IMG/VR virus record: IMGVR_UViG_3300037558_002542
Location: 1 to 28,486 of that record
DNA length: 28,486 nt
Direction: 5' to 3' (one strand)
Origin: a virus
Below, piece after piece: positions 5,601 to 28,486 of the stretch (positions are counted from its first letter, which is position 1; each line of letters opens with the position of its first letter). The position numbers were made by a program, and so were the translations under genes. The notes under the pieces were generated by a model, which saw only the letters and a program-made list of their open reading frames with translations, was not told the origin of the DNA and did not search any database.

Positions 5601-8183
5601 GAGTTGAACATCATCAACCTGAGTATATGGATTAGCAGAAGTAGCAGGCGTTTCAAATGTAAATCCGGTTCCTGAGGCAACCCATGTTCCAAAATTGTGT
5701 CCGGTTGTTGTATTGATGCCACCACTCCATGTTTCTCTGAGGAGAATCATGTCGGTAAATGGAAGTGTTGATGTAACTTCACCAAATACATCAACTTTAG
5801 ACTTAGGAACCGTGGTTCCGATACCAACTGAACCATCAGAAGTTATACGAACTCTTTCGGATCTTCGATCAGTTCTATCACCAGATGGTTGAGTAGACCA
5901 ACTCCAATAAGAACCTCCATCACTTTCAATGCTACCAACTTGGTTTGCAATCGCAGCACCAGTTTCATTCACAGCATCAATGAATATACCTCTTGTCTGT
6001 GATGCAGATGAATCAGTTGTTTGTAACTGTAGTCCTTGATAATTACCACCAGAACCTTCTAATCTCAGACCAATTCCATCAAAGTTCTTAATTGTAACTA
6101 GTCCAGTTGATCCTATACGAAGTCTTTCACCACTATTGAGATTGTTCTCAGAAGAAGTTCTGAATATAATTTGACCATCATCTTTATTAGTGGTATCAGT
6201 TCCTGTTGTTAGAGCAATTTCTGCAACTGGTGTTCCGTTCCAATGTCCTTCAATTGCCAATAAGTGAGCATCCGCACCAGTTCTATTACAATCAGAAGTT
6301 ATCTGTGCATAATGATTTTCTGCTGTTTTGAATGTTAATCCTTTTCCATTAGTATGAAGGATTTGTAAGTGGTCAGATGGATTATCAGTTCCGATGCCGA
6401 CGTTGCCTTCTTTATCGATTAAAAGTGCAAGACTATTATTGGAGTCATTTGCTGCTGCTTCAAAATCTGCATGAGTATTATTAGAATCATAAGTATCAAA
6501 TCTAATATTTGCCCCAACAATTCTGACCCTATCTGGTCCTGCACTTGCAGCAGAATCATTATCTTTTAATATAAGAAGTTCTGAATCTTCAGTACCATCA
6601 TAAATTCTCTCTCCAATATAGGAGTGGAAACCCCTGGTAGCCGAAGGCAAATCACCAGTAGTTCCTTGGAATGCGATGTAATTTGATGATGCAGAACCAC
6701 CTACAACTAAATTTCCACGAACATCCAGTTTTTCTGCTGGATCATCAGTTCCGATGCCGACGTTGCCTTCTTTTGTTATACGGACTTTCTCTGTAGCATT
6801 TGTATAACCGGCTGTAGTACCTGTGTAAAATCTTATGCCTCCACCAACAGAATTTGCTGAGCTTGCCAGTACTAAAGAATTACCACTTGATGTGGAGTAG
6901 ATTGCGTTTTGATCTGTCCCGCCATCTTGTCTAAACAAGATCCTAGGGTTATCTTCCTCGTTGTTGTTATCAGTATCTGATTCTAGTATTAACTCGCAAT
7001 CACCTGAAGTCCCAGAAGAAATATGTAGTTTTCCTTGTGGATTAGTCGTGCCGATACCCATTGATCCAACACCAGTTATGCGGAGTAAATGTTCTCCACC
7101 CTGTCGGAATACAAAGTCTCCATTTCCAAGAGTTCTGATCTCATTAGATTGACTATTTTGTCTATTAAAAATCTTAATCTGACCAACAATTCCATCTCCA
7201 GGGTTTCTGTGACCATTAAGAACTATATCTGATGTAGAAAAATCACCTTCATTGGTAATACTTAATCCAATACCAGATCCATATGTTATACGAACGTCAT
7301 CACGGAATGTAGAAACTCCAGTTACAACTAAACCACCAGCAGTAACTCTTAACCCACTTCTGGCAGTAGCAATACCAAGAGAATCTACATTAGTTACATC
7401 TTCATAAGTTAATGTTCCAGCAATAGAAACATTACCACTAATGTCCAATGAAGAAGCAGTTAGAATACCTGTAACAACAGCATCAGCAGCGACTGTTCCG
7501 GTTACAGTTATACCAGTTGAAGTGGTTACAATTTTTTCAGAGTTATCGTAGAAGAGCGTTACTGCGCCATTTTGAGTAAAAGTAGCAAGCTGTTCATCAT
7601 CAGCTGCGTTTCTTATCCTAACGTCGCTAGCTAAGATCCTTAATGCTCCAGTTCCTTGATCAGAAATATAACTTATAGAACCAGTATGATAAATCTGCAA
7701 GTCATCGCCAGCGCCAAAATTGGCAATCTCGTTATCCCCCAAACTTATCCCACCAACTGTAGCAACTCCAGTAACATTAAGTGATCCTGCTACATCAAGT
7801 TTTGCTCCGGGAGAAGCGGAACCAATACCAAGACCAGTATTGGTGAGACGCATCTTTTCGTCTCCTGCACCAGTGCCATCAATATCAAATCTAATATATG
7901 AATCTGCATTTGTGTCAAGTAAATCTGCGGTAAATCTAAAATTACCGTCAATATTTCTAATTCTTACCTGCCCATCACTATCATATAAATCTAAGTTCGC
8001 ACCAGCACCTCTAGAGGTAAAGATTCCTAGAGTATTTGCGGAATTGGATAGGACATGCAAAAATGCCTCGGGGGTATCAGTATTGATACCCACCTTCTCG
8101 GCATTGACAATTGATATATCACCAGTAGAATCGTTTACCGAGACATTGCGTCCAAATTGTCCTAACTCTAGATTCTTAGTCAC
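2694..8183 (-). CDS. Giant tail fibre with VGIGT repeats, knob domain and C1q-like tip
   Basis: 1829 aa, probably a trimeric distal adhesive fibre. Eight VGIGT-type motifs (VGIGT-x2-P-x2-KLDV) start at about residues 31, 118, 375, 475, 595, 786, 1045 and 1148. Three LFYDNSEK/LYYNGSNRLET-type motifs lie near 210, 1254 and 1403. Between the sixth and seventh VGIGT motifs, residues about 808-1015 lack repeats and look like an inserted globular beta-sandwich (FKIKFTGTSTGTGDSYGVSS near its end). A WHAGNDGAGSSLDADTLDS motif, common in phage fibres, lies at 1434-1452. A pyocin-knob-like domain follows at 1465-1541. The C-terminus, about 1685-1829, resembles a C1q/TNF-like jelly roll (TKAGWYSIQANMVYNNG, then NDRIGISQYG). 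The start is GTG at 8183: an in-frame stop lies just upstream and the next Met is residue 111. Domain names are by eye; the fibre role is strongly suggested. Confidence 0.88.
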   Translation of the reverse strand: MTKNLELGQFGRNVSVNDSTGDISIVNAEKVGINTDTPEAFLHVLSNSANTLGIFTSRGAGANLDLYDSDGQVRIRNIDGNFRFTADLLDTNADSYIRFDIDGTGAGDEKMRLTNTGLGIGSASPGAKLDVAGSLNVTGVATVGGISLGDNEIANFGAGDDLQIYHTGSISYISDQGTGALRILASDVRIRNAADDEQLATFTQNGAVTLFYDNSEKIVTTSTGITVTGTVAADAVVTGILTASSLDISGNVSIAGTLTYEDVTNVDSLGIATARSGLRVTAGGLVVTGVSTFRDDVRITYGSGIGLSITNEGDFSTSDIVLNGHRNPGDGIVGQIKIFNRQNSQSNEIRTLGNGDFVFRQGGEHLLRITGVGSMGIGTTNPQGKLHISSGTSGDCELILESDTDNNNEEDNPRILFRQDGGTDQNAIYSTSSGNSLVLASSANSVGGGIRFYTGTTAGYTNATEKVRITKEGNVGIGTDDPAEKLDVRGNLVVGGSASSNYIAFQGTTGDLPSATRGFHSYIGERIYDGTEDSELLILKDNDSAASAGPDRVRIVGANIRFDTYDSNNTHADFEAAANDSNNSLALLIDKEGNVGIGTDNPSDHLQILHTNGKGLTFKTAENHYAQITSDCNRTGADAHLLAIEGHWNGTPVAEIALTTGTDTTNKDDGQIIFRTSSENNLNSGERLRIGSTGLVTIKNFDGIGLRLEGSGGNYQGLQLQTTDSSASQTRGIFIDAVNETGAAIANQVGSIESDGGSYWSWSTQPSGDRTDRRSERVRITSDGSVGIGTTVPKSKVDVFGEVTSTLPFTDMILLRETWSGGINTTTGHNFGTWVASGTGFTFETPATSANPYTQVDDVQLTDNHNYIIFHGASGDNPSFISPTIDLSTYHVNDHLTGISNLDGSSLTSGGKNSTADSRYYMMVLCAAQSNDSSAERLEIHCSRDDGSTYELMAQVFEDGDGNVSGADSTADTTWRKVVIDISRFVGSSTFKIKFTGTSTGTGDSYGVSSIYIYQAPIPNKFEAKDLRIDGGNIYLNSVATGGYLGIGTDPTLSSEELTVAGDISLKRGPGTSSSLTRILKIEGARSNESAFAKIEFENYDANDGSTSNSSTIEARTNGGNGGQLRFKTKPVDGSLDDRLTITGIGSVGIGTISPIATLDVNGGVQFTGVTTMTRNDRDGSLQGKVLHIKNTFNNGARDTLLVETTQDRDVGVQIKNSSDYFSIFVDGNSDDALNISDGDDTTILECRQDGGVVLYYNGSNRLETIDSGVDILGGVYMTEDSVSPRGEALIHVASGGLPVFYGHETLEDFEIIIDQNMHLGIGQTVTLQGAAHIERNDVAQKALYVRNNPSGVSTATIAYFAGDNYGLQISGQGSSGDYYFGMDPSQFMNGFEFFNGTGGLRVFYEGTNRLEFDAGNGYGDFKGNPSVSGNVIWHAGNDGAGSSLDADTLDSVQLADLSPTKVTAVALDSGSDLNSVSDGFYKWGTGSTQPANSPFDYAIVQQITDNNQAIQLAFGNNGSGKLAVRRKDSGTFYDWTYFASLNGSNAQVFQKSIEFMDRVSIGDTAQLYSGMTYPSTDADGNAAGHPNLVVGGGSSVAMIAFGDGQNADPVAIFCKEDEAADNQVVIIAGDGDADEELLDIRSNANPDGTSNILSFAPLNSNSVMRVYGSGDVYIKGNVERDIPVCHRKTDVSAAVTETDSSSPPTVNFNLSETNDSDHFTVSNNVGVVTVTKAGWYSIQANMVYNNGSTSSRNTVRAFVTKNGTEITSTASYDYNRGSLYGKSNLNVHTFLNLVANDRIGISQYGDNIQGDSCTMLAAECEFIIVKQG
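6384..6413 (-). repeat. 30-bp exact direct repeat, copy 1
   Basis: This 30-base stretch is identical to 6744-6773, exactly 360 bp (120 codons) away in the same frame. It encodes KEGNVGIGTD of the fifth VGIGT module in the 1829-aa fibre and is more GC-rich than its surroundings. Confidence 0.9.
6744..6773 (-). repeat. 30-bp exact direct repeat, copy 2
   Basis: Second copy of the 30-base identity, encoding the same residues in the fourth VGIGT module. Neighbouring bases on both sides differ, so the identity is confined to the motif. Confidence 0.9.
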
Positions 8184-8209
8184 GTCAGTTACTTATCTCT
8201 TTGTTAAAT

Positions 8210-8217
8210 TATTTATT
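8210..8217 (-). promoter_or_regulatory. T4-type late promoter variant AATAAATA
   Basis: The minus strand reads AATAAATA in the 42-base gap before the 1829-aa fibre gene, 26 nt from its GTG start. It keeps the ATAAATA core shared by the other large genes in the window. Confidence 0.75.
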
Positions 8218-8225
8218 TTGATTAA

Positions 8226-11200
8226 TCAGAGATAGAAGTTGTTCCATGAAGAACCATCCCATCCTTGATGCTTACCGACTGTTGTATTGAATAGAATCGC
8301 GCCAGCAGTTGTAGATGCAACACCATCTCTTTGTGCTGTTGTCATTCTAGGTACGATGAAGAACTTATCAGTAGACTTCAGTTCCAGAATTGCGTCAGCA
8401 GCAGGAGTGTGAGTTCCTACACCTACGCTGTATCCTGTTCCGATTCCGAGGATGTTATTATCACCAAGTAGTGATACATCTCCTTCAGAAACAAATGCCG
8501 CAGCAGTTACGATACCAATCAGATCAAGTGATGCATTTGTATCAACCGAAAGTGCAGTTGTTGCTGTGGTTGCGGTTCCTGTGAGATCACCTGTGACATT
8601 ACCTGTAAGATCGCCAGTTATGTTTGATGTAATAGTTGCAGGCAATCTAGCATCATCAATTGTTCCAGTCAGTTCTCCTGCAGGGATGCTTACAAGACCA
8701 GAACCAGAACCAGTGAATGATGATGCAGTTACAACACCAATGACACTAGCGCCGATAGAGACATTCAGTTGAGTAATTGATGTAATTCCTAGAGAGGAAA
8801 TGCCAGATACTGTGAGATCGCTAGTAAGGGTAAGATTGGATCCAGTTGCACTTGCCCCGAGTGTGTTAGCAGTAGACGCAGTACCTGCTAGATCGCCCGT
8901 AAATGACGCTGCAGTGATGATTCCGGAGGTATTGACACTTCCATTGGTAGTGAGTGCCAGAGCGACCTGTGCGATGCTTGCAGTGCCGAATACGTTGCCA
9001 ATTAGAGCACCACTGAAGGTCGTAGCAGTGATAATTCCACTTGTGTTGACACTTGCAGTAGAATTTAGACTATTTGCAACCGTAGCAGTAGAAGCAACAC
9101 CCGTAAGATCACCGATAAATGTTGCAGTAATAATACCAGTGGTATTAATGTTTGCATTAGATGTCAGGGAAAGTGCTTCAGTTGCAGTAGATGCAGTACC
9201 TGTAAGAGTTCCCGTTACTGTCAGGTTTGTAACTCTAGATGTGGTTGCAAACAGCGATCCCGAAGTAATAATGCCAGTTGTATTGATGTTAGCATTATTG
9301 GTGAATCCAAGAGCAACTCTTGCCTCGTTTGCATGTGTTGCAGTTCCAATAAAGGATCCTGCAGTGATAATACCTGTAGTATTGATAGATCCGTCACCAG
9401 TAAATCCAAGAGCGACGGTTGCAACCTCAGCAGATGTTGCACTAGAGATAGTACCAACAAATGTGTTTGCAGTAACAATACCAGTAGGAATGTTCAGTGA
9501 CGTTGATGTTAATACATCCGATCCATTGATTGCAAGACTACTCTCCGTAATACTGAGAGAACTTCCAACCCGTATAATATTACTTTCAATCGTGAGACCC
9601 GATCCAACAAGAACCTGATTTCTAATACCATCAATAACAACACTGTCCGGACCAACAGTCAGAACACCAGTAATTCTAGCGTCAGCATTGACCCAGAGTT
9701 GAGTTCCTGCTGCACCTACATTTCCAACCTCGAGTTTGTATCTTGGATAAGTTGTGCCAATACCAACATTAGATAGTGTGTAAACACCTGTAGCATTTCT
9801 CTGCCAATCTTCTGCTAACTTAGGAGCATATGTAATTAGTTCTACTTCATCACCAGATCTCAGTGCTTTGTGTAGAGTAATTACTATACCGCTTGTATCG
9901 GTATAATGATGCTTTCTAATCAGTTTAACACCATTAATGAATACATCAATTAGACCCTCAGTGTAGATTGCTGGGAACTCAGTTTGTCCCTCATATGCGG
10001 TAAACTTACTATCAGATCTTCTCTCCTGAGAACCATCTTTATTATATTCAACAATTTCAATAGTCTCATCATCAAATAGGGATGCAACGTTAAATTCAAT
10101 TGTGAGTGTTGAATCTGATTCATCCTTCGTATACTGAGAAGGAATTAACTTAACACCATTGTTATATACTTCAATATAACCAGAAGAGTCGGTTACAGGA
10201 ATAACGTTTCTGTTATCTGTAATTGTGTGGGAGGTGATGATTCCAGTTCTTGCTGTAGTGGCAATACCAATAATCTCAACAATATCTCTATTTCCCGCTC
10301 CAACGTCTAATTGAATTGTATTACCAGCACCGACTACGGAATATTCGTCAGGTGATAGAAGAACTCCATTAACATAAACATCATTATCAGGCACAGCAGT
10401 TGGAATACCGACAGTAAAGTTGATTTGACCTGCTCCTGCAATTACTGTCGTAACACCAGTTCTTGTATAATCAGCATATTCAAAGATCTCAATAGTATCT
10501 CCTGATGTAAAGTCTTGATCAAACAATGCATAATTGTCTGGTGCAAAGGTATTGTACTCACTTTTACTGAGTTTGATACCATCAAGGAATACTATATTTT
10601 CTCCATCATGATTGGTAATATCAAATACGTTTTTAAGTGCGTTACCAGTCTCATCAAAAACATTGCTTGCTGTAGTTGCAAGTCCAACGACAGTAACAAC
10701 GTCATCATTTAAGGATCCTACGGTCAGTTGGATTGTGTTACCGGTCCCAATTGAATTGAATTCTGATGGTGCAAGTTTTACACCATTGACATATACTTCA
10801 TTGTTTGTGACACCCGTTCCAATACCAGCAATGTTAGTTACACCAATACCAGTAAGTGATGTACTGACACCAGTTATTGCATATGAAGCATACTTAAGAA
10901 TATCAACACTATCGTTTGCATAAGTTCCTTTGGTTAGGACAACTGTCGTTCCAACACCAACGGCATTACCTAGACTATCTGCAATAGTAAATTCATTGTG
11001 ATGTAGTCTTACGCCATTAACAAATACTTCAGAGTTTGCTGCTGTGATGTCTTCATCTGTATAGAAGACTGTTTGACCTGCACCAGCAGTGATAGTAGCA
11101 ACACCAGTCTTTGCATTATTATATGAAATAATATTAACTTGTGACTCATTATGTGGAGCAAGTGTAATTTGAATAACTGATCCAATACCAGAGTAACCAC

Positions 11201-12584
11201 CTTGTGAAGGTGCTAACTTAATACCATTGACAATTACGTCATAATCAAATAGTTCTTTAGTTAGATCAATGATGGAAATACCAGCACCAACAATGACTGT
11301 TGTAAGACCTACTTTATCTTTATTCCTGTAGCTCTTTGCATCAATTTTATCAATATTGTTAGTAATCTGATTGATTCTTACAATATCACCGAATGATAGG
11401 AAGTAATCTTCTACCTCAGAATACTTAATACCGTTGATATAAACATCAAGAGGTTTAGAATCTGTTTGACTTCCAATTCCAATTGGGAAGTAGTATGTAT
11501 CTAATCCTCTTGTTGTTGTTTGAGATGAGGATACACGGACACCTTCTGGATATCCAATGATTTCAATTTCATCACCAATAAAGGTTGACTGTTGTAATTG
11601 AATCTCATTTCTATTAGGAACATTATATGTAATTACCTCTGGTAACTGCTTAACACCATTGATGAATAGATCAGTGTTACTTCTATTATTGGTAGTAGCA
11701 ATACCTACGTGTGAGAATGTGGTCTGAGCAGCACCAACATCAATATAACCAATCTGTCTTCTTACGTCTTTAGTCTCTACGAAACCTTTTCTTGGTGGAA
11801 TAAGAACTGTTGCTGAGTTAGAACTACCAACAAATTCTAGATCACTTCCTTGGAACTCTAGAACCTTAATATTACCTATGTCACCATGGATATTTCCATT
11901 ACCCTTAATAGTTAAACTCTGGAATGCCAGGTTTGGTCCAGCAGTTACACCAAATCCAACCAGTTGGAGAATATCTCCTTTATCTGCTCCAACGTTTAAA
12001 AATACTTTTGAACCACCATCAGAGTAGAACTGACTATCTGGCAGTTTTACACCGTTTAAGTAAACGTCTATACCAGCTGGATCATGAACAAAGTTAAACT
12101 CAGTTGTTCCTGCTGCAACGTTTGTATATGTAAAGTCTGATCTGATACCTGGAGCATACTCCCACTCCAGACCTGTACCATTGTGAACTATAAACTGTCC
12201 ATCCTTACCAGTCGTGCCACCGAGACTGACTAGACTATTGACTGTTGTAATTCCAGTAAACGTTGAATCGTTGAAGGATCCAGCAAAAACTGATCCGCCA
12301 ATATTAACGTTCCCACCAAAGGTAGAAATACCCGTGATATTTAAATTGTTTATTGTGGCAATACCACTAATATTAATATTGTTTATCTCTTGGGAAGATG
12401 CTGCTGAGAGTGCAATTCCCGTCAGGTTAGAACCATCACCATAGTAAGTCGTAGCTGAGACAGCACCACTGACCTGGATTTTCGCACCAATAGAAGATGT
12501 ACCCAAACCAACTTGTGATCGGGATTCATTTTGGTTGAACAGATTGGGAGTTACTAACGCCGCTAAATCTCTTGCTCTTGACAT
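8226..12584 (-). CDS. Giant fibre protein with ten NGVKL repeats and WDGSSW-type cap
   Basis: 1452 aa with two repeat systems. Residues about 150-925 hold ten VYVNGVKL-x-P-type units. The Asn (Asp in one unit) of each motif lies at 177, 309, 384, 453, 523, 600, 668, 739, 809 and 884. Except for the first gap, spacing is 68-77 aa. Each unit continues as IQL...GD-x-VEI and often ends TGVTTVIAGAGQ. The pattern recalls the VDGV/NGV units in the N-terminal region of T7-like tail fibres, an inferred similarity. A single VGIGT motif at 940-944 separates these from a second array (about 1055-1245) of five INTTGIIT-type units. The C-terminal 55 residues (LELKSTDK... PRMTTAQRDG... WDGSSWNNFYL) match a fibre-end motif seen in many phage tail proteins. 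ATG start at 12584; no strong Shine-Dalgarno. A late promoter ends 16 nt upstream. Confidence 0.88.
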   Translation of the reverse strand: MSRARDLAALVTPNLFNQNESRSQVGLGTSSIGAKIQVSGAVSATTYYGDGSNLTGIALSAASSQEINNINISGIATINNLNITGISTFGGNVNIGGSVFAGSFNDSTFTGITTVNSLVSLGGTTGKDGQFIVHNGTGLEWEYAPGIRSDFTYTNVAAGTTEFNFVHDPAGIDVYLNGVKLPDSQFYSDGGSKVFLNVGADKGDILQLVGFGVTAGPNLAFQSLTIKGNGNIHGDIGNIKVLEFQGSDLEFVGSSNSATVLIPPRKGFVETKDVRRQIGYIDVGAAQTTFSHVGIATTNNRSNTDLFINGVKQLPEVITYNVPNRNEIQLQQSTFIGDEIEIIGYPEGVRVSSSQTTTRGLDTYYFPIGIGSQTDSKPLDVYINGIKYSEVEDYFLSFGDIVRINQITNNIDKIDAKSYRNKDKVGLTTVIVGAGISIIDLTKELFDYDVIVNGIKLAPSQGGYSGIGSVIQITLAPHNESQVNIISYNNAKTGVATITAGAGQTVFYTDEDITAANSEVFVNGVRLHHNEFTIADSLGNAVGVGTTVVLTKGTYANDSVDILKYASYAITGVSTSLTGIGVTNIAGIGTGVTNNEVYVNGVKLAPSEFNSIGTGNTIQLTVGSLNDDVVTVVGLATTASNVFDETGNALKNVFDITNHDGENIVFLDGIKLSKSEYNTFAPDNYALFDQDFTSGDTIEIFEYADYTRTGVTTVIAGAGQINFTVGIPTAVPDNDVYVNGVLLSPDEYSVVGAGNTIQLDVGAGNRDIVEIIGIATTARTGIITSHTITDNRNVIPVTDSSGYIEVYNNGVKLIPSQYTKDESDSTLTIEFNVASLFDDETIEIVEYNKDGSQERRSDSKFTAYEGQTEFPAIYTEGLIDVFINGVKLIRKHHYTDTSGIVITLHKALRSGDEVELITYAPKLAEDWQRNATGVYTLSNVGIGTTYPRYKLEVGNVGAAGTQLWVNADARITGVLTVGPDSVVIDGIRNQVLVGSGLTIESNIIRVGSSLSITESSLAINGSDVLTSTSLNIPTGIVTANTFVGTISSATSAEVATVALGFTGDGSINTTGIITAGSFIGTATHANEARVALGFTNNANINTTGIITSGSLFATTSRVTNLTVTGTLTGTASTATEALSLTSNANINTTGIITATFIGDLTGVASTATVANSLNSTASVNTSGIITATTFSGALIGNVFGTASIAQVALALTTNGSVNTSGIITAASFTGDLAGTASTANTLGASATGSNLTLTSDLTVSGISSLGITSITQLNVSIGASVIGVVTASSFTGSGSGLVSIPAGELTGTIDDARLPATITSNITGDLTGNVTGDLTGTATTATTALSVDTNASLDLIGIVTAAAFVSEGDVSLLGDNNILGIGTGYSVGVGTHTPAADAILELKSTDKFFIVPRMTTAQRDGVASTTAGAILFNTTVGKHQGWDGSSWNNFYL
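8849..9419 (-). repeat. INTTGIIT tandem repeat array
   Basis: Five degenerate units (INTTGIIT at residues 1067, 1100 and 1146; VNTSGIIT at 1179 and 1217) spaced 33-46 codons apart. DNA similarity is visible as repeated ccagt/gtattgatgtt-like blocks on the plus strand. It encodes a Thr/Ala/Gly/Ser-rich shaft in the 1452-aa protein. Confidence 0.8.
9809..12134 (-). repeat. NGVKL repeat array (ten units)
   Basis: Coding region of ten diverged units of about 70-75 codons in the 1452-aa fibre protein. On the plus strand the recurring signature is a variant of acaccatt(g/a)acatatac, the complement of the VYVNGVK codons. The units are diverged at DNA level, so the array is old or under diversifying change. 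Confidence 0.82.
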
Positions 12585-19697: not shown

Positions 19698-20123
19698 TTA
19701 ACCACCATCAACTTGACATCCAACTAGTGCTCCACCAACAATACCAAGAGGAATTGCCCACAATCTTCCTTCCTTACGGGAAAGTGCAGCACCTGCTCCA
19801 CCACCAGCAATTCCACCTAAAATAGAACCTTCAATGCATGAATTGTCATCAGCGGGAACTGATCTACGGGTATGTTTATCAACCCGTACTTCGTGCCCAT
19901 TAATATATGTTCGTCGTACACTTACGTTATCACAAGGAACCTTTATTCTCTCTTTGTATGATTTTACATAACCAGGATTATTCATGGTGCCTGGGACATA
20001 AGTTTCCCTATAGACCCTCTTATAGCACTTCTGCTCACGAGAATATCCACCCTGAGACTCATAGGGTGCTGCAAGTGCTGCAGCAGGTGTGAGAGCAATG
20101 ATTGTGAAGAGAATGAGTTTCAT
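19698..20123 (-). CDS. Secreted glycine-zipper protein, 141 aa
   Basis: Residues 1-18 (MKLILFTIIALTPAAALA) are a classical signal peptide with an Ala-x-Ala cleavage site, so the protein is predicted to leave the host cytoplasm. The mature part, about 20-90, is basic and Tyr-rich with Cys at about 33 and 64. Residues about 98-137 form a glycine zipper (SILGGIAGGGAGAALS... IPLGIVGGALVGC) like those of the Rickettsia 17-kDa antigen and OmpA-like lipoprotein families, which insert in or associate with membranes. There is no lipobox Cys after the signal. It starts 6 bases after the 80-aa gene. The role in phage infection is unknown; an envelope or lysis/exclusion-related function would be a guess. 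Confidence 0.8.
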   Translation of the reverse strand: MKLILFTIIALTPAAALAAPYESQGGYSREQKCYKRVYRETYVPGTMNNPGYVKSYKERIKVPCDNVSVRRTYINGHEVRVDKHTRRSVPADDNSCIEGSILGGIAGGGAGAALSRKEGRLWAIPLGIVGGALVGCQVDGG

Positions 20124-22035: not shown

Positions 22036-22713
22036 TTACAGTTGTGACCATTGACTTGGATGAGTAGATCCCTGATGGTGATTGTGATATTCCGGTTTCA
22101 ACGTAACTCTTACGTCTCCTGCAATAACGATTCTCTCACCAATTCTTTTTTCGTTCTTCTTAGTAAAGTGTAGAACATTACTTGGAAAGATGATTACAGA
22201 TCCCTCATGAGGTGTAATCGTGTAAAAATTACAATTATATTTATTATAATTCAATAGGATATTATTGTCTCTTGCAACTTCAAACATACCAGACACAGAT
22301 TCATTTCTATTGTTTGCTTGCTGCAGACAAAATTTGTCAGAAGAGTTATCAGTCTTTAAGTAATAAACAAAACTTAGATTTGCTTCATTATGAAAATGTG
22401 CCGGAATTGATGGAGTTTCATCATCTTTATGATATCCAACCCAAGACTTAGTGATGTGGTAGTCTAGTTTTCTAAAGTCAACACCAATATTTTGATGATA
22501 AAAATCTAATGATGTTTTAAGATCATCAAAGAAAAACTTATATTGATGATCTCTATGTAAAAATATTTTTCCAGAACACTCCGGACTCTCATTTTTATAT
22601 CCATCAAACCAATATTCTTTAACGTCATCTAGATGCTCGTCCTTGAACTGTTGATGACAATCTATGTTGTTTTGATAGATTACTAGAGGAAAGATCTCAT
22701 GAACCTTATTCAT
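22036..22713 (-). CDS. 2-oxoglutarate/Fe(II)-dependent oxygenase-like protein, 225 aa
   Basis: The ATG at 22713 shares one base with the stop of the upstream gene (TGATG), so translation is coupled; a TTG one codon upstream is less likely. The fold of the TIGR02466 / 2OG-FeII_Oxy_5 type is indicated by PAHFHNEANLSFVYYL (His106, His108, Glu110; Fe ligands are probably among these), then HEGSVIIFPSNVLHFTKKNEKRIGERIVIAGDV, giving the distal His182 and the 2-oxoglutarate-binding Arg194. Family members hydroxylate proteins or small molecules using 2-oxoglutarate and O2. T4-like cyanophages carry several such genes, mostly of unknown substrate. This one sits inside the tail operon between structural genes, so its substrate could be a virion or host protein, which is speculation. 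Confidence 0.82.
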   Translation of the reverse strand: MNKVHEIFPLVIYQNNIDCHQQFKDEHLDDVKEYWFDGYKNESPECSGKIFLHRDHQYKFFFDDLKTSLDFYHQNIGVDFRKLDYHITKSWVGYHKDDETPSIPAHFHNEANLSFVYYLKTDNSSDKFCLQQANNRNESVSGMFEVARDNNILLNYNKYNCNFYTITPHEGSVIIFPSNVLHFTKKNEKRIGERIVIAGDVRVTLKPEYHNHHQGSTHPSQWSQL

Positions 22714-23522
22714 CAATCACTATTAACGATGTACTGATCATTATCGCCCGGATAATCATCTTCCGTCAAGCCCTGGTACTCTGAAATATTTTTACTTACA
22801 TCCTTTCTCTCACCATAGACAACATAACTACAATTAATTGCATCACCTGATCTATTCTTTACAATGATGTTTTGACTACCCTCAATCTTCTCAACAAATA
22901 ACTCTTGATAACATCCAATTGGAGTAAGACTGACTCCAATGGTATTAGCATTTACAAGTTCATTCCAATAATCTGGCAGTTTAATTACTGTACTATCTTT
23001 TAACTTACCTCTATAGTAAACCTCTGCTTCTGGACCCTCAAGACAAACATATCTCAATCTATGATTTTCTTTTGTTGGGTGTGGAATGTCAAATGATTTT
23101 TTAGATCCTGCAAGGGCACTATTTTTATTAATTCTAGATGCAACATCACCACACCCAGCAACATTAAGTGATGATGAACAAACAACAGAACCTCCACAAA
23201 AGACACTTCTTGTTGCAAATATATTACCATCAATATTAATGTCTCCATTAAAGAAAGTTTGAGATACATTTGCTACAAGAGAACCGAGTGGACCAACATT
23301 AGACTCTAGAATAATGTTATTTACATCATTACCGTTTGCGTGGAACCAGGCATATCTTCCCCTATTCTTATAGAATAAGATGCCAATGTCGGTAACGTTA
23401 AATTCTGGACCTTCTGTCGGAAGTTGTTTATACCAATTTGGTTCACTATCATCAAAAGTAAAGTTACCATTACTAGGTCCAGTGAATGTTCCGTAATTCT
23501 TAAAATCAAATAAATCTGCCAT
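22713..23522 (-). CDS. Tail structural protein with LEGPE/LPDYW domain (paralogue 2)
   Basis: 269 aa. Residues about 1-140 are beta-rich (NFTFDDSEPNWYKQLPTEGPEF, then SQTFFNGDINIDGNIFATRSVFCGGSVVC, which looks like short beta-helix or spike rungs) and Cys-containing. Residues 144-243 are a compact domain starting FDIPHPTKENHRLRYVCLEGPE and including LPDYW and SLTPIGCYQ. The same domain occurs in the preceding gene. Similar domains are found in proteins of phages and bacteria near fibre-type or S74-type ends. An acidic tail follows (LTEDDYPGDND). The ATG at 23522 has a good Shine-Dalgarno GAGGAG at 23532-23537, lying in the last codons of the upstream gene, 9 nt away. Probably a baseplate or spike-tip component; the precise role is unknown. 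Confidence 0.78.
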   Translation of the reverse strand: MADLFDFKNYGTFTGPSNGNFTFDDSEPNWYKQLPTEGPEFNVTDIGILFYKNRGRYAWFHANGNDVNNIILESNVGPLGSLVANVSQTFFNGDINIDGNIFATRSVFCGGSVVCSSSLNVAGCGDVASRINKNSALAGSKKSFDIPHPTKENHRLRYVCLEGPEAEVYYRGKLKDSTVIKLPDYWNELVNANTIGVSLTPIGCYQELFVEKIEGSQNIIVKNRSGDAINCSYVVYGERKDVSKNISEYQGLTEDDYPGDNDQYIVNSD

Positions 23523-23525
23523 TGA

Positions 23526-24215
23526 TTAATTCTCCTCGTATTCTCCAGTGTCGTTTACTTCTACTTCTAATTTATCAACATCTTTCCTTTCTGCAAAGAT
23601 GTGATAGTAACAATCAATCGGCATATTTCCTTTTGATTGCAGATGAACCTGATTTTGACCAACTCTCTTGATAATAATATCTTGATGAGCACCAATTGGC
23701 GTTAATGATACTGTAATACTTGTTTCATGTACAAGTCCTGTCCAATAATCTGGAAGATTTATAACATTTCTTCCAGTAAGTCTACCTCTTATATACACAG
23801 AGACTTCTGGACCCTCTAAACACGAATACACCAACCTTTTATTTTCTTTTGTTGGGTGGGGAATATTAAAGTTTTTAATCGATGCACATAAGATCTTTGT
23901 GTAAATGATCTTAGCCTTAATTAAAGGTACAGAAAGTAAAACATCAACTTTTAGATATCCTTTTATTCTAGCAAAAGCTGTGACAATCAAAGAATAAAAT
24001 GGAGTTGGTTTCATATCGGGGTTGGTTGTCGGAGCAACCATTAATGTCCCCAAATCTGTCGGAACAGGAGAAGTATATATTGAAGGTTGCCCCACAATCT
24101 CAGGACCTTCTACATATGAAGTACCTCTTACGGTGAGTGGACCTCTACCAAAAATCTCAGGATTACCAACACCAACAAAAGACTGCCTCCCTACGGAAAT
24201 ATCATCAAATTCCAT
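23526..24215 (-). CDS. Tail structural protein with LEGPE/LPDYW domain (paralogue 1)
   Basis: 229 aa, start ATG at 24215 overlapping the upstream stop (TAATG). Residues 1-70 are beta-rich with Gly/Pro turns (GNPEIFGRGPLTVRGTSYVEGPEIVG). Residues 75-112 are hydrophobic and basic. Residues 115-214 are the same domain as in the following gene: FNIPHPTKENKRLVYSCLEGPE, then LPDYWTGLV, SLTPIGAHQ and YHIFAERKDV. Both paralogues end in an acidic tail; here it is VNDTGEYEEN. The N-terminal halves are unrelated by eye, so the pair arose by duplication or shuffling of the C-terminal domain. An 18-base identity at the KEN codons is the best-preserved DNA match (23841-23858 and 23064-23081). Virion role inferred from the operon. 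Confidence 0.78.
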   Translation of the reverse strand: MEFDDISVGRQSFVGVGNPEIFGRGPLTVRGTSYVEGPEIVGQPSIYTSPVPTDLGTLMVAPTTNPDMKPTPFYSLIVTAFARIKGYLKVDVLLSVPLIKAKIIYTKILCASIKNFNIPHPTKENKRLVYSCLEGPEVSVYIRGRLTGRNVINLPDYWTGLVHETSITVSLTPIGAHQDIIIKRVGQNQVHLQSKGNMPIDCYYHIFAERKDVDKLEVEVNDTGEYEEN

Positions 24216-24817
24216 TATTTGAATGCCTCTTCAACGATTTCTTTTGTACTCTTACCACCATATTTAGATGGAATGTTTGCAGATCCTCCAGTAGCACACT
24301 TTGTAAATCCAGAGTACATCTGCATTGATGTTCTACATACGATTTGACCTACACCAGAAGAAATAAATTTCCAGGCAACTTCTGCGTCAATAGTAACTTT
24401 TTTGGAGTTTAATTTAATTTCTTCGTTTGCAGTTATATTGCAAGTTCCTTTTGAATTATTACTACCACTGGCAATAATTTCTATGTTTCTACCTTCAAAA
24501 CGAATATCACCATCCTCTGCTCTAAAAACAATGTCCCCAGATTTTGCAATAACCATGAATGAATTTTCAGATCCAGGACCCTGAGCAAATTCACCACAGG
24601 TAATATTAAAAGATCCTGGACAACGTGATACTGTCCATCCCTCTCTGGGACCATCTTTATCTAGAGTAAGGTAATGACCTTCATAGGATCCTTGAAGTTT
24701 TACATCCGAAGTTACCTCTCCAGAAACTTTAGAAACTCCACACTCGAGTGAACCAAATTTTATTGCTCCGTCACTGTTACCATATTCAACTGTATAAAAA
24801 TTTTCCTTTTCGCTCAT
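24215..24817 (-). CDS. Beta-helix spike-like protein, 200 aa
   Basis: Start ATG at 24817 overlaps the stop of the gp5-like gene by 4 bases (ATGA). Residues about 85-160 show short repeating rungs (GDIVFRAEDGDIRFEGRNIEIIASG, then ITANEEIKLNSKKVTIDAEV) typical of triple-stranded beta-helices such as the T4 gp5 C-terminal needle and VgrG spikes. The N-terminal 80 residues include a Cys-containing segment (ECGVSKVSGEV) and a GYSK-like GPREGWTVSRCPGSF. A helical tail follows (KSTKEIVEEAFK). Its place directly after gp5 and its fold suggest it is the separate needle or spike part of the central hub, which T4 encodes within gp5. Inference from pattern and context. Confidence 0.75.
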   Translation of the reverse strand: MSEKENFYTVEYGNSDGAIKFGSLECGVSKVSGEVTSDVKLQGSYEGHYLTLDKDGPREGWTVSRCPGSFNITCGEFAQGPGSENSFMVIAKSGDIVFRAEDGDIRFEGRNIEIIASGSNNSKGTCNITANEEIKLNSKKVTIDAEVAWKFISSGVGQIVCRTSMQMYSGFTKCATGGSANIPSKYGGKSTKEIVEEAFK

Positions 24818-27735
24818 GTTACTTGACCTACGCAGTCTATTACTTGGACAACAGGTGTTCCTTCTGGAATAGTAATTGAGTCTTCAATATCTTCACCTAC
24901 TCTAATGACTTCAAATACTGGTAGCAACTTAGCGTTAATTCCTGCATCTGAGTCAATAAAGACATTTGGAAGTTCAGTAAACCCAATTCCACCATCAACG
25001 ACTTTAACATCGGTGACTCTACCAAACTTATCAAAGATTGGTTCAAACGAAGCTCCCCCGGAATTTGGGAAAACTTTTATTTGATCACCCTCATTATAAT
25101 TTATTCCTTGCTTTAACACAAGTACATCCTTTATTCTAAGAACTGTTGGATATTGCCCCAATCCATTAGAAAACTCATCTCCAGTAGATACGAAAGTTCC
25201 AAGAGTTATTGGTTGACCATTTTGACCACCTACTTTAATTGTGGTGCCACCAACACTATCAGTATTGAGGTTTTCACTAGCAGACACTAAATCAATTCCA
25301 CCGAAAATTATATTAGATCCTCCACTACCACCAGAAGATACGATATTACCATCAAGTAAAACGGTTTCTGTTCCGGTAGAACCAGCAAAAATTTGCTCTC
25401 CACCATTTCCACCAATGAATACTGGTGTTCCTCCACTTGTTGTTAGTGCTGATCCTCCAATCACAACAGGAATACCACCAGTAGAACCTGCAATCAAAGG
25501 TAATCCAATTAAATCATTGATTGGTTCTGGAGTTGTAAACCCACCACTAGAACCAGGACCGACCAAAACAGGAACTTTTGGACCTTTTCCAGTCAAAGTT
25601 GCAACCACATTTCCTAAATCATCTGTTACCTGCGAAGTTGTATTCAGAGGCATATAAACTTCATCACCCTCTACTAATGTTAAGTTGGTATTTGGGGGAT
25701 ATGCATTGAATCCATAATCTAAAAGACCACTGTAATCACCTGGTTCTAGAATATTGGTAAATGTTCCCACCGTTAAGGTATCGGTAATTTGATTGGGAAG
25801 ATCCAATACATCAGGAACTTCAACTGGATAAGGTAAAGCAGTTTTTGCTGGAATTGTAGTTCCTGTAGGAATTTTATTGAAATAATCAACTGTAATATCT
25901 TCAGTCAATACCTGACCAGTTTCAAAAGTTTGTGGACTTGGACTAGATGTGTTTACAACAATTGGAGTTATTATCTCTGTACCAGATTCAATAACTGTTC
26001 CATTTGGTACTTTTCCACCTTCATATAAAGTATAATCTTGTTCCAACTCGGTTCCCTTTGGAATTACTGGTCCTGGGGCAGGGTGTTTAACAATTGTATC
26101 GTTAGGTCCACTGAAGACTGTTCCAGAAGAAGTTACTGTTGTTCCATTTGATGATGGAATATAACCAGACCCAGATTCTTTTACAACAACTGAATCAACT
26201 TTACCATTTTTTACGATTGGTATGATTACAGATCCACCACCAATAACTTCAGTTCCCTCTGTTGATGTTTGACCAATCTTAGGAGTTGATTTATAACCTT
26301 CTCCAGGATCTACAACATCAAGACCTATAACACTGCCCGTTTTTTTATCAATAATTGGATTAAATTTTGCAGGTTTATCTGGGTTTCCACCAAATGAAAC
26401 AAATGATGGTACTCCCGCAAGAATAGGACCAACGTCACAATCTCCAGTTGCTCCTAAACCAGCGTTAGAAATAATATCACTCAATGAACCAGAAAGAGGA
26501 TCTTGAATGTTTATACCACCCCAAGGACTCCACTCTCTTATCTGTGGTGGTTCTGCTTTAGGATCGCAGAATGGAAATTGTAAAATACCCGCTATTGTCC
26601 CAGCAAGATCGCCACCAACACCACTAAGTCCTGATGCAACATTAGATACTGCCTCAATTGGAGCCATAACATCACCAAGTGCTCCAGACACTGAATCTAG
26701 TGCCTTTGACAAGACCTTTCCTGCCATTTTTTCAGCAGCACATATTGGGGCACTAACAGAATTTTGAAGAAATCCTTTAAGAGCACTTTCAACTAATGCA
26801 ACAAGACCATCAATAATTTTGTTTATAATACAAGCGAGAGTATCTGACGCTTTATTTGATACTTCATTTAGTATAGGTCTTTCATTTGGCATTAACAAAT
26901 CAATTGTATTTTTCAGGACTTCATCCTTTGCCTTTAAAATTGCGCCACGAATTTTTGAGATAATTACTTTTATAAAACTAGCAATCATCTGAGTTGCCTT
27001 ATTAACCTCCGACTGTAATACCGCATTTGAAGCAACTGATGCTCCAAAAAAACTACTTTGTGCAGATTTTACTCTATTAACAACTGCCATCAATGTCTTC
27101 ATGACAATTTGAATTGAGATAGTTTCACTATCTTCTTCTTTCTCTGCAACATTAAGAGAAGTAGATTCATTACCGGCATACGCTTGCATTGGATCTGCGA
27201 TAGAACCAATGTTTGCAGAAGATCCTTCTCTAATAGGTTTTCCGCTACCCTGTGATTTTAAGTGCTGATCTTTAGCTGCGACAGGAACTTCTCCAGATAA
27301 ACCTGCAGAAGATGTTCTTGCCTTAAATCCATCTTGAGGATCTTTTCCCTCTAATTCAGTATTGTCATTATTACCCAAAACACCCAAGATTATTGGTTGT
27401 TGAGCATCCAAACCATCTTTATAGAATCCAAGAACAAAGTTTCCTTGACGAATATTGGGTGATTGTTTGGATCCACCACCACCAGATCCTGCAGTTACTG
27501 GATAAAGAACCTCTGCCATCGGAAGTTCTTCATCAGTAACTTCGGTCTGTTTATCTTTTGACTGGTTACCAAAAATTCTCACCTTATACCGATAACCCCA
27601 ACCTTTAGTATCTTTAGGGTCTTCATGCAACTTAGGATTGATATTATCTCTCCAGGTAGAATCATCAACAACTTGTCCAAGCCACCAGTAAAAACTACTC
27701 GTTCCTAGGGATTGTTCTTCAAGGAGTTTACTCAT
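24814..27735 (-). CDS. gp5: gp5-like baseplate hub/central spike protein, no visible lysozyme domain
   Basis: 973 aa. The N-terminal 20-150 (SSFYWWLGQVVDDSTWRDN, GWGYRYKVRIFG, PNIRQGNFVLGFYKDG, QQPIILGVLGNND) matches the OB-fold start of T4 gp5, which anchors the spike in the hub. Where T4 gp5 has lysozyme, this protein has a helical, alanine-rich, partly hydrophobic region, about 205-395 (TQMIASFIKVIISKIRG and similar); I see no lysozyme motif. From 450 on it is Gly/Pro/Thr-rich and beta-like. It has GSGY modules at about 465-482, 510-526, 865-885 and 905-925, and a Gly-rich VIGGSALTTSGGTPVFIGGNGG stretch near 758-780. The start ATG overlaps the stop of the 75-aa gene (TAATG). As hub protein it would pierce the host outer membrane together with the 200-aa product. 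Confidence 0.85.
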   Translation of the reverse strand: MSKLLEEQSLGTSSFYWWLGQVVDDSTWRDNINPKLHEDPKDTKGWGYRYKVRIFGNQSKDKQTEVTDEELPMAEVLYPVTAGSGGGGSKQSPNIRQGNFVLGFYKDGLDAQQPIILGVLGNNDNTELEGKDPQDGFKARTSSAGLSGEVPVAAKDQHLKSQGSGKPIREGSSANIGSIADPMQAYAGNESTSLNVAEKEEDSETISIQIVMKTLMAVVNRVKSAQSSFFGASVASNAVLQSEVNKATQMIASFIKVIISKIRGAILKAKDEVLKNTIDLLMPNERPILNEVSNKASDTLACIINKIIDGLVALVESALKGFLQNSVSAPICAAEKMAGKVLSKALDSVSGALGDVMAPIEAVSNVASGLSGVGGDLAGTIAGILQFPFCDPKAEPPQIREWSPWGGINIQDPLSGSLSDIISNAGLGATGDCDVGPILAGVPSFVSFGGNPDKPAKFNPIIDKKTGSVIGLDVVDPGEGYKSTPKIGQTSTEGTEVIGGGSVIIPIVKNGKVDSVVVKESGSGYIPSSNGTTVTSSGTVFSGPNDTIVKHPAPGPVIPKGTELEQDYTLYEGGKVPNGTVIESGTEIITPIVVNTSSPSPQTFETGQVLTEDITVDYFNKIPTGTTIPAKTALPYPVEVPDVLDLPNQITDTLTVGTFTNILEPGDYSGLLDYGFNAYPPNTNLTLVEGDEVYMPLNTTSQVTDDLGNVVATLTGKGPKVPVLVGPGSSGGFTTPEPINDLIGLPLIAGSTGGIPVVIGGSALTTSGGTPVFIGGNGGEQIFAGSTGTETVLLDGNIVSSGGSGGSNIIFGGIDLVSASENLNTDSVGGTTIKVGGQNGQPITLGTFVSTGDEFSNGLGQYPTVLRIKDVLVLKQGINYNEGDQIKVFPNSGGASFEPIFDKFGRVTDVKVVDGGIGFTELPNVFIDSDAGINAKLLPVFEVIRVGEDIEDSITIPEGTPVVQVIDCVGQVT

Positions 27736-27965: not shown

Positions 27966-28486
27966 TTACCTATCGTAGGAATCTCTTACAAGAATTAGTT
28001 TACTCACCGATCTTTTCGGTGTCAACTTATGACATAACTCTGATATCATATATAGTCCACTATTTGCCTCTTCTGGATTTGGGACCTTTTGGTTTGATGA
28101 AGAAACCTCTGGAACATCCACAAATACTATGTCTCCAACATTCACTCCCGTCTCTGCAGGAATTGTAATTTCCATTTGAATAGTAAATGCCTGTTGGTAT
28201 CTCATTGTTGCTTGAGCAGCAATGTCAGGTAATTGTAGATTTTCCTCTGCCGATTTATCTAACTGTTTTTTTAGATCTGATCCCTCTGGAAGAGTGCCAA
28301 TATCCTTCATGTATGTAAAGTAACGTGAAGGTTCACTAATAAATTTGGAGTTAACATAATCAGTTATGTTGGTTTTTCCTGGATTTTTGATACCACCTTC
28401 TTGATCACTAAATGAAAAATTATTCTCATCATAGGTTTGTTCTTGGGGATTAAAATCAAACTTCTCTGTATTATATGATCCAGTAG
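27966..28486 (-). CDS. Probable baseplate hub protein (gp27-like), C-terminal part, runs off right edge
   Basis: The frame is open from the stop TAA at 27966 through the ATG at 28310 to the right edge with no stop (173 codons visible), so that ATG is most likely internal and the gene is partial. The visible part starts in an Asp/Asn/Phe-rich stretch (QTYDENNFSFSDQ). It has an amphipathic segment (LPEGSDLKKQLDKSAEENLQ) and then a beta domain (AFTIQMEITIPAETGVNVGDIVFVDVPE). It ends NSGLYMISELCHKLTPKRSVSKLILVRDSYDR. That ending, with GLYxI...H...T.LILVRDS, is typical of gp27/gpD-type hub proteins, which form the ring that carries gp5. Position directly upstream of the gp5-like gene agrees. The gp27 identity is inferred, as the N-terminal part is outside the window. 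Confidence 0.6.
   Translation of the reverse strand, partial: TGSYNTEKFDFNPQEQTYDENNFSFSDQEGGIKNPGKTNITDYVNSKFISEPSRYFTYMKDIGTLPEGSDLKKQLDKSAEENLQLPDIAAQATMRYQQAFTIQMEITIPAETGVNVGDIVFVDVPEVSSSNQKVPNPEEANSGLYMISELCHKLTPKRSVSKLILVRDSYDR

Follow-up and report, generated by a model that had tools for sequence, protein, structure and literature searches.

The window analysed here, a viral record used over its full length, is a fragment of 28,486 bases, on whose minus strand the end of a gene for a 'tail protein', the gene for a gp5 homologue and a gene for a 200-aa protein follow one another in this order (Table 1). The gp5 stop codon and the start of the 200-aa gene share the four bases ATGA, and the coordinates that the first-pass annotation gave are correct. 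The window ends before the positions of X1 and X2, two long genes that in relatives lie just upstream of the hub genes and bear peptidoglycan hydrolases; the record being a fragment, the genes preceding the tail protein lie outside the sequence available for this virus. By sequence, the tail protein, a candidate hub, has no relative in the PDB, and sequence comparison did not link it to T4 gp27. Directly after the 200-aa gene come tandem paralogues of phrog_17490 (22713-23522 and 23526-24215, both on the minus strand) with a C-terminal domain of the form HPTKEN.RL.Y.CLEGPE..VY.RG; they are kept beside the spike gene in relatives and are possible spike-tip or fibre parts. Other genes on the minus strand include a 2OG-Fe(II) oxygenase gene inside the baseplate gene block (22036-22716; Pfam 2.7e-12) and a strong match to phrog_767, 'cAMP phosphodiesterase' (19698-20123; 4.3e-51).

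Table 1. Features of the gp5 and spike genes and of the gene preceding them in the window.
Feature	Positions	Strand	Basis
'Tail protein', C-terminal part, phrog_350; truncated at record end	27966..28484	-	precedes gp5 in relatives
gp5 homologue, hub protein without lysozyme, 973 aa	24814..27735	-	PHROG 1922, E 1.7e-75
gp5 OB-fold domain, residues 13-135	27331..27699	-	T4 gp5 superposition, hhalign, family profile
OB-to-helical linker, residues 136-202, low confidence	27130..27330	-	AF2 pLDDT mostly <65
Helical domain at the place of T4 lysozyme, residues 203-384	26584..27129	-	AF2; Cys302 and Cys332 inside
gp5 beta-rich variable C-terminal part, residues 401-973	24817..26535	-	AF2; an ORF of its own in many relatives
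Detached spike/needle protein, 200 aa	24215..24817	-	phrog_26118, E 1.7e-42; profile and model
Spike N-terminal five-strand neck, about residues 5-65	24623..24805	-	predicted model
Spike intertwined beta-helix (predicted), residues 66-168	24314..24622	-	model, structural matches, hydropathy

The PHROG families to which the window's gp5 is assigned bear the name 'baseplate hub and tail lysozyme'. That it starts with an OB fold, as the first-pass annotation had proposed, is borne out by family profiles, profile alignment and structure prediction. In the window protein itself the Pfam family Gp5_OB is matched with an E value of 0.0063, under the curated cut-off, and the same family is found in 48 of 64 family members. 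The family alignment comprises 67 gp5 proteins (the window's and those of viral contigs); the best PDB sequence match of its profile is T4 gp5, in the OB part only, and hhalign pairs gp5 with residues 1-135 of T4 gp5 at 96.6%. The AF2 model (mean pLDDT 72.7) places a beta barrel at about residues 17-120, and its OB domain superposes on residues 6-131 of T4 gp5 with a Z score of 12.1 and an rmsd of 2.8 over 119 aligned residues. Single-protein phmmer searches of the PDB with gp5 and with the spike returned nothing useful.

The second part of the earlier proposal, that the lysozyme domain is missing from gp5, is likewise upheld. No hydrolase family of Pfam was detected in the window's gp5, in 10 relatives or in the 64 family members scanned, and the helical region did not match a lysozyme profile (hhalign 0.6%), whereas a lysozyme profile obtained from the upstream genes, used as a positive control, matched the T4 gp5 lysozyme at 92%. 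The VIA list for gp5 contains no lysozyme either, an absence that alone proves nothing. A lysozyme-like fold in residues 205-395, named beforehand as the observation that would count against this claim, was looked for and not found.

The region at this place had been described as helical and partly hydrophobic. Its helical character is evident from the AF2 model, with long helices at residues 204-227, 236-278, 286-325, 331-368 and 374-384 (pLDDT of the block mostly 66-89) that agree with the 205-395 given earlier. Its hydrophobicity is real but mild, the best 19-residue Kyte-Doolittle window reaching 1.58, and 27 of the 67 family members exceed 1.6 in this region. Three cysteines are near-invariant in the family, Cys302 (66 of 67 sequences), Cys332 (67 of 67) and Cys390 (66 of 66), the last just past the end of the helical domain. 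Structurally the helical part matches generic bundles only, with a designed bundle as the best match (Z 8.9); such matches carry little meaning for helical models. The C-terminal part that follows is modelled as long and beta-rich, with very low confidence at about residues 775-856. In some relatives (loci L003, L010 and others) gp5 ends after the helical domain, as an OB-plus-helical ORF of some 500-600 aa, and the beta-rich part is an ORF of its own. The window's protein ends in VIDCVGQVT, and those of L002, S-SCSM1, P-TIM68 and S-SSM7 continue with PYYGPFH.H.GRKMVG..HT, after which most of them have a Pro-rich tail.

A needle within gp5 itself, which would also have spoken against a detached one, was not found, the spike family profile giving no match in any gp5 ORF; since this profile also misses the T4 needle, the result excludes only a needle of this family. 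The beta-rich residues 540-640 of gp5 were considered as a hidden needle, which they probably are not, as they are absent from compact relatives and have no spike-profile match.

The claim that a beta-helix, needle-like part is encoded separately in the next gene is supported for the 200-aa protein at the level of prediction, with modest scores. The profile of its family (49 aligned members) matches VgrG (E 0.0062) and the Anabaena injection-system spike All3320 (E 0.033), and DUF2345, the spike domain of VgrG, was found in 23 of the 49 members. In the predicted model (pLDDT 80.5) a five-strand neck at residues 10-65 precedes a confidently predicted stretch, up to about residue 160, that has no intrachain strands; a monomer model of an intertwined trimer would be expected to look like this. 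Hydropathy alternates with a two-residue period over residues 66-168 (p 0.0005). The best VIA-align match is VgrG 9jg9 (Z 7.4, 2.8 A, 143 residues), and the next ranks are held by VgrG 8gra, PVC1, Afp8, a Streptomyces system, the VgrG of the PdpA-VgrG complex and the Anabaena spike; the T4 needle (1k28, 385-529) is matched with a Z score of 3.9. The top four Foldseek matches are without exception central spikes or T4 gp5, none of them significant individually (E values of the matches to spikes 0.3-2.5). Comparison with the T4 needle by hhalign gave a weak 3.9%, and a search for related loci seeded with the spike alone found nothing.

The way the two proteins divide the known structures between them is consistent with this assignment. 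The 200-aa protein aligns solely to the post-OB part of single-chain spikes, its beta-helix stretch overlapping residues 385-529 of T4 gp5 and 458-603 of VgrG, and the OB domain resides in gp5 and is absent from the spike chain. The ranges covered by gp5 and by the spike, respectively, are 363-455 and 457-612 in 8gra, 364-455 and 458-603 in 9jg9, 362-458 and 465-589 in 7b5h, 264-438 and 441-527 in 6rbk, and 267-444 and 447-532 in 9qgm. The two sets of matches thus adjoin without overlap, as expected of one spike cut at the border of OB domain and needle.

This arrangement is not specific to the window. By tblastn, gp5 relatives were found in 426 phage records, nearly all of them Synechococcus or Prochlorococcus phages, and the order gp26, gp51, X1, X2, tail protein, gp5, spike recurs in those genomes that are annotated. 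Among viral-contig loci in which 7 kb or more of downstream sequence is present or the spike can be seen, a detached spike is present in 63 of 63, directly adjacent to gp5 in 34 and 1.0-6.5 kb further on in the others; in the loci checked it is never fused to gp5. A detached needle together with a lysozyme-less gp5 is the standard of the T4-like cyanophages (Kyanoviridae). Extra genes also occur in this structural block. A small CP12 carbon-metabolism gene lies between the tail protein and gp5 in loci L007, L006 and L011, and in L006 (S-SM2, 7636-11910) gp5 and the spike are separated by the insertion of a 1,424-aa virion protein with a PA14 domain.

The peptidoglycan hydrolases of relatives are found in X1 and X2, a placement outside the spike as in phages of the P1/T5/TM4 type. 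The domains present are Phage_lysozyme in locus L002, GH19, Phage_lysozyme2 and M23 in B23, glucosaminidase and VanY in S-SCSM1, and M23 in S-B05. Over 46 X2 and 42 X1 proteins, M23 was counted in 12 X2 and 2 X1, Hydrolase_2 in 9 X2, Phage_lysozyme in 2 X2 and 3 X1, and glucosaminidase and M15 each in 3 X2 and 1 X1, with further families present. A search of whole records with just three hydrolase families gave matches in 26 of 46 records, located in X1/X2 at 1.7-5.5 kb upstream of gp5 and never in gp5, the lone exception to this placement being a separate lysozyme ORF 29 kb away. The closest relative, L013, has a gp5 about 52% identical to that of the window. The lysozyme in its X1/X2 went unseen by Pfam, NCBIfam and PDB sequence searches, and was recognised by tblastn from the homology of X2 residues 978-1145 to phage proteins that bear the annotation muramidase, endolysin or lysozyme. 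The profile of this segment matches the first 102 residues of the lambda R endolysin at 97.5% (E 7.7e-12), the alignment including the EGT and GRYQ segments, and X1 of L013 contains a second copy of the lambda-R-like domain. No hydrolase was seen in X1/X2 of L014. A conserved C-terminal segment of X2 in L013 (7926-8294, plus strand), also present in X2 of L002, has zinc-peptidase-like H/D/HxH motifs; it has no library match, and tblastn found it in phage Bellamy only.

Virion data for phage S-CREM2 bear on the location of these proteins. Mass spectrometry detected two 'endolysins' at the X1/X2 position, where the proteins are abundant, as well as the proteins at the hub and gp5 positions and the product of the next gene (PMC10665884). 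Its authors considered that the endolysins may sit inside the capsid, not the tail (PMC10665884); from the gene order we would place X1 and X2 with the tail. An identification of X1/X2 as tape measures, the name that the S-SCSM1 record gives to X2, was not adopted, since a virion gene of S-CREM2 of about 2,670 codons appears to fit its 418-nm tail better.

The OB fold, the absence of a recognisable lysozyme from gp5, the similarity of the 200-aa protein to spikes, the pairing of the two genes and the X1/X2 hydrolases of relatives were all obtained by computation, and our assessment is that the virus quite probably has a tail of T4-like cyanophage type with a two-gene spike and with its hydrolases on the upstream virion proteins X1 and X2. 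The gp5 and 200-aa genes would together encode the central cell-puncturing spike. In gp5, the OB adaptor would sit on the hub and be joined to the helical bundle, and the 200-aa product would form a trimeric beta-helix needle that docks non-covalently under the OB trimer, in a manner comparable to the gp5C needle of T4, which remains attached to gp5* after cleavage. Upon sheath contraction the needle would pierce the outer membrane, and the hydrolase domains of X1/X2 and not of gp5, presumably encoded by this phage as by its relatives and located at the tail tip, would then cut the peptidoglycan. Needle and enzyme most likely still act together, the enzyme having moved to other virion proteins, a relocation that has been proposed for phage P1 too.

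Two other accounts of the split spike were weighed against this one. Because the gp5 and spike genes overlap by four bases, an assembly or frameshift artefact that broke a single gp5 gene could be imagined. It is refuted by the relatives, as the identical break occurs in all 63 loci and in isolate genomes, with the genes having their own start codons, and it can practically be dismissed. The 200-aa protein could also be, in place of the central needle, a short fibre or a wedge accessory that contains a beta-helical repeat. Its individual scores are weak, and in S-CREM2 the gene that follows gp5 was annotated 'baseplate wedge protein, inner' (PMC10665884). But of the ten structures that match it best, nine (VgrG, Afp8, PVC, CIS) are the central spikes of contractile machines, the top twelve also include T4 gp5 and the P1 baseplate spike, the matched ranges start right past the OB domain, and the family profile points to VgrG and All3320; we regard this possibility as unlikely.

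The role of the helical domain allows more than one reading. One reading, which develops the proposal of the first-pass annotation, is that it functionally replaces the lysozyme, for example as a membrane-active or wall-opening element, so that entry would not require an enzyme. The domain does sit exactly at the place of the T4 lysozyme, is kept across the clade with its three near-invariant cysteines, and has some hydrophobic helices. Its hydropathy is however moderate, mostly under transmembrane level, and most relatives have hydrolases in genes adjacent to the hub genes, so that such a replacement appears very unlikely to us. The proposed different way of crossing the envelope is only faintly supported, since the hydrolases of relatives are in X1/X2 and include the lambda-R-like lysozyme of the closest relative; relocated hydrolases, together with the precedents of T4 and P1, suggest that the route is probably conventional and that its parts have been redistributed. 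We consider it about an even chance that the domain is a structural collar or clamp for the needle, or a binder of X1/X2 or the tape measure, with no enzymatic or membrane role, which is a sub-hypothesis compatible with the two-gene spike. The helical bundle fold with its generic matches and its conservation together with the detached needle at all loci fit this reading, and the lysozyme domains of T4 likewise pack against the needle (PMC3004832); contact of the helical domain with the needle is itself a proposal. Most simply, the domain may be viewed as a structural clamp or adaptor, with a membrane role as a less likely alternative. That the domain with its three cysteines is a new functional part of the puncturing device across T4-like cyanophages appears unlikely, if somewhat less so than a functional replacement of the lysozyme; it could then be, for example, a disulfide-braced clamp from which contraction frees the unlinked needle, or an element that inserts into the membrane.

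What the clade shows is a wrong label, 'tail lysozyme', and not a new route into cells: gp5 of the cyanophage branch bears this label in many records, and the domain was found in none of the 64 members scanned. With an exchangeable set of hydrolases apparently encoded in X1/X2, the specificity of wall cutting may be read there and not from gp5. A paper on pelagimyophages described gp5 as very divergent, supposedly reflecting host cell walls (PMC7029224). In the open-access subset of the literature we found no statement of a lysozyme-less cyanophage gp5 or of a separate needle gene.

We regard the arrangement as a T4-type puncturing device whose three functions are distributed among several genes, and the window virus is a marine cyanophage relative. 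T4 gp5 is cut between Ser351 and Ala352, and the fragments remain bound to each other (PMC3004832). Like the window's protein, it has an N-terminal OB fold, a domain on a linker past it, and a needle that forms its own chain in the mature particle. Unlike it, the window's gp5 has a helical bundle and no lysozyme, as well as a long, variable, beta-rich C-terminus, and the cyanophage needle is a separate gene whereas that of T4 is a cleavage product. The unlinked needle may thus be seen as a natural genetic counterpart of the T4 protein cleavage, and could serve as a simple test system for how a needle is held and released.

In phage P1, gp5 consists of OB domain and needle only, and an SLT domain is assigned to the tape measure Sit (PMC9024508). 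P1 thus shares a gp5 without lysozyme and a hydrolase proposed on another virion protein, but it has OB domain and needle in one short chain without a helical insert, whereas the cyanophage relatives use two upstream proteins with varied hydrolases. Among the Kyanoviridae, S-SCSM1, B23, P-TIM68, S-SM2, S-B05 and SynMITS9220M01 agree with the window in gene order and domain layout; their gp5 is about 27-38% identical to that of the window and is mostly annotated 'tail lysozyme', and differences lie in the C-terminal modules, the additional genes (CP12, PA14-type) and the type of hydrolase. The spikes of VgrG and eCIS (8gra, 9jg9, 7b5h, 6rbk) have the same OB domain and beta-helix with DUF2345-type repeats, but each is one chain, with the hub part included. 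In the Anabaena myophage A-1(L), the hydrolases are in the hub protein gp15 and the spike gp25 is a single chain (PMC10966104); it is likewise a cyanophage with hydrolases outside the OB/needle spike, differing in placing them in the hub protein and in having the spike in one chain.
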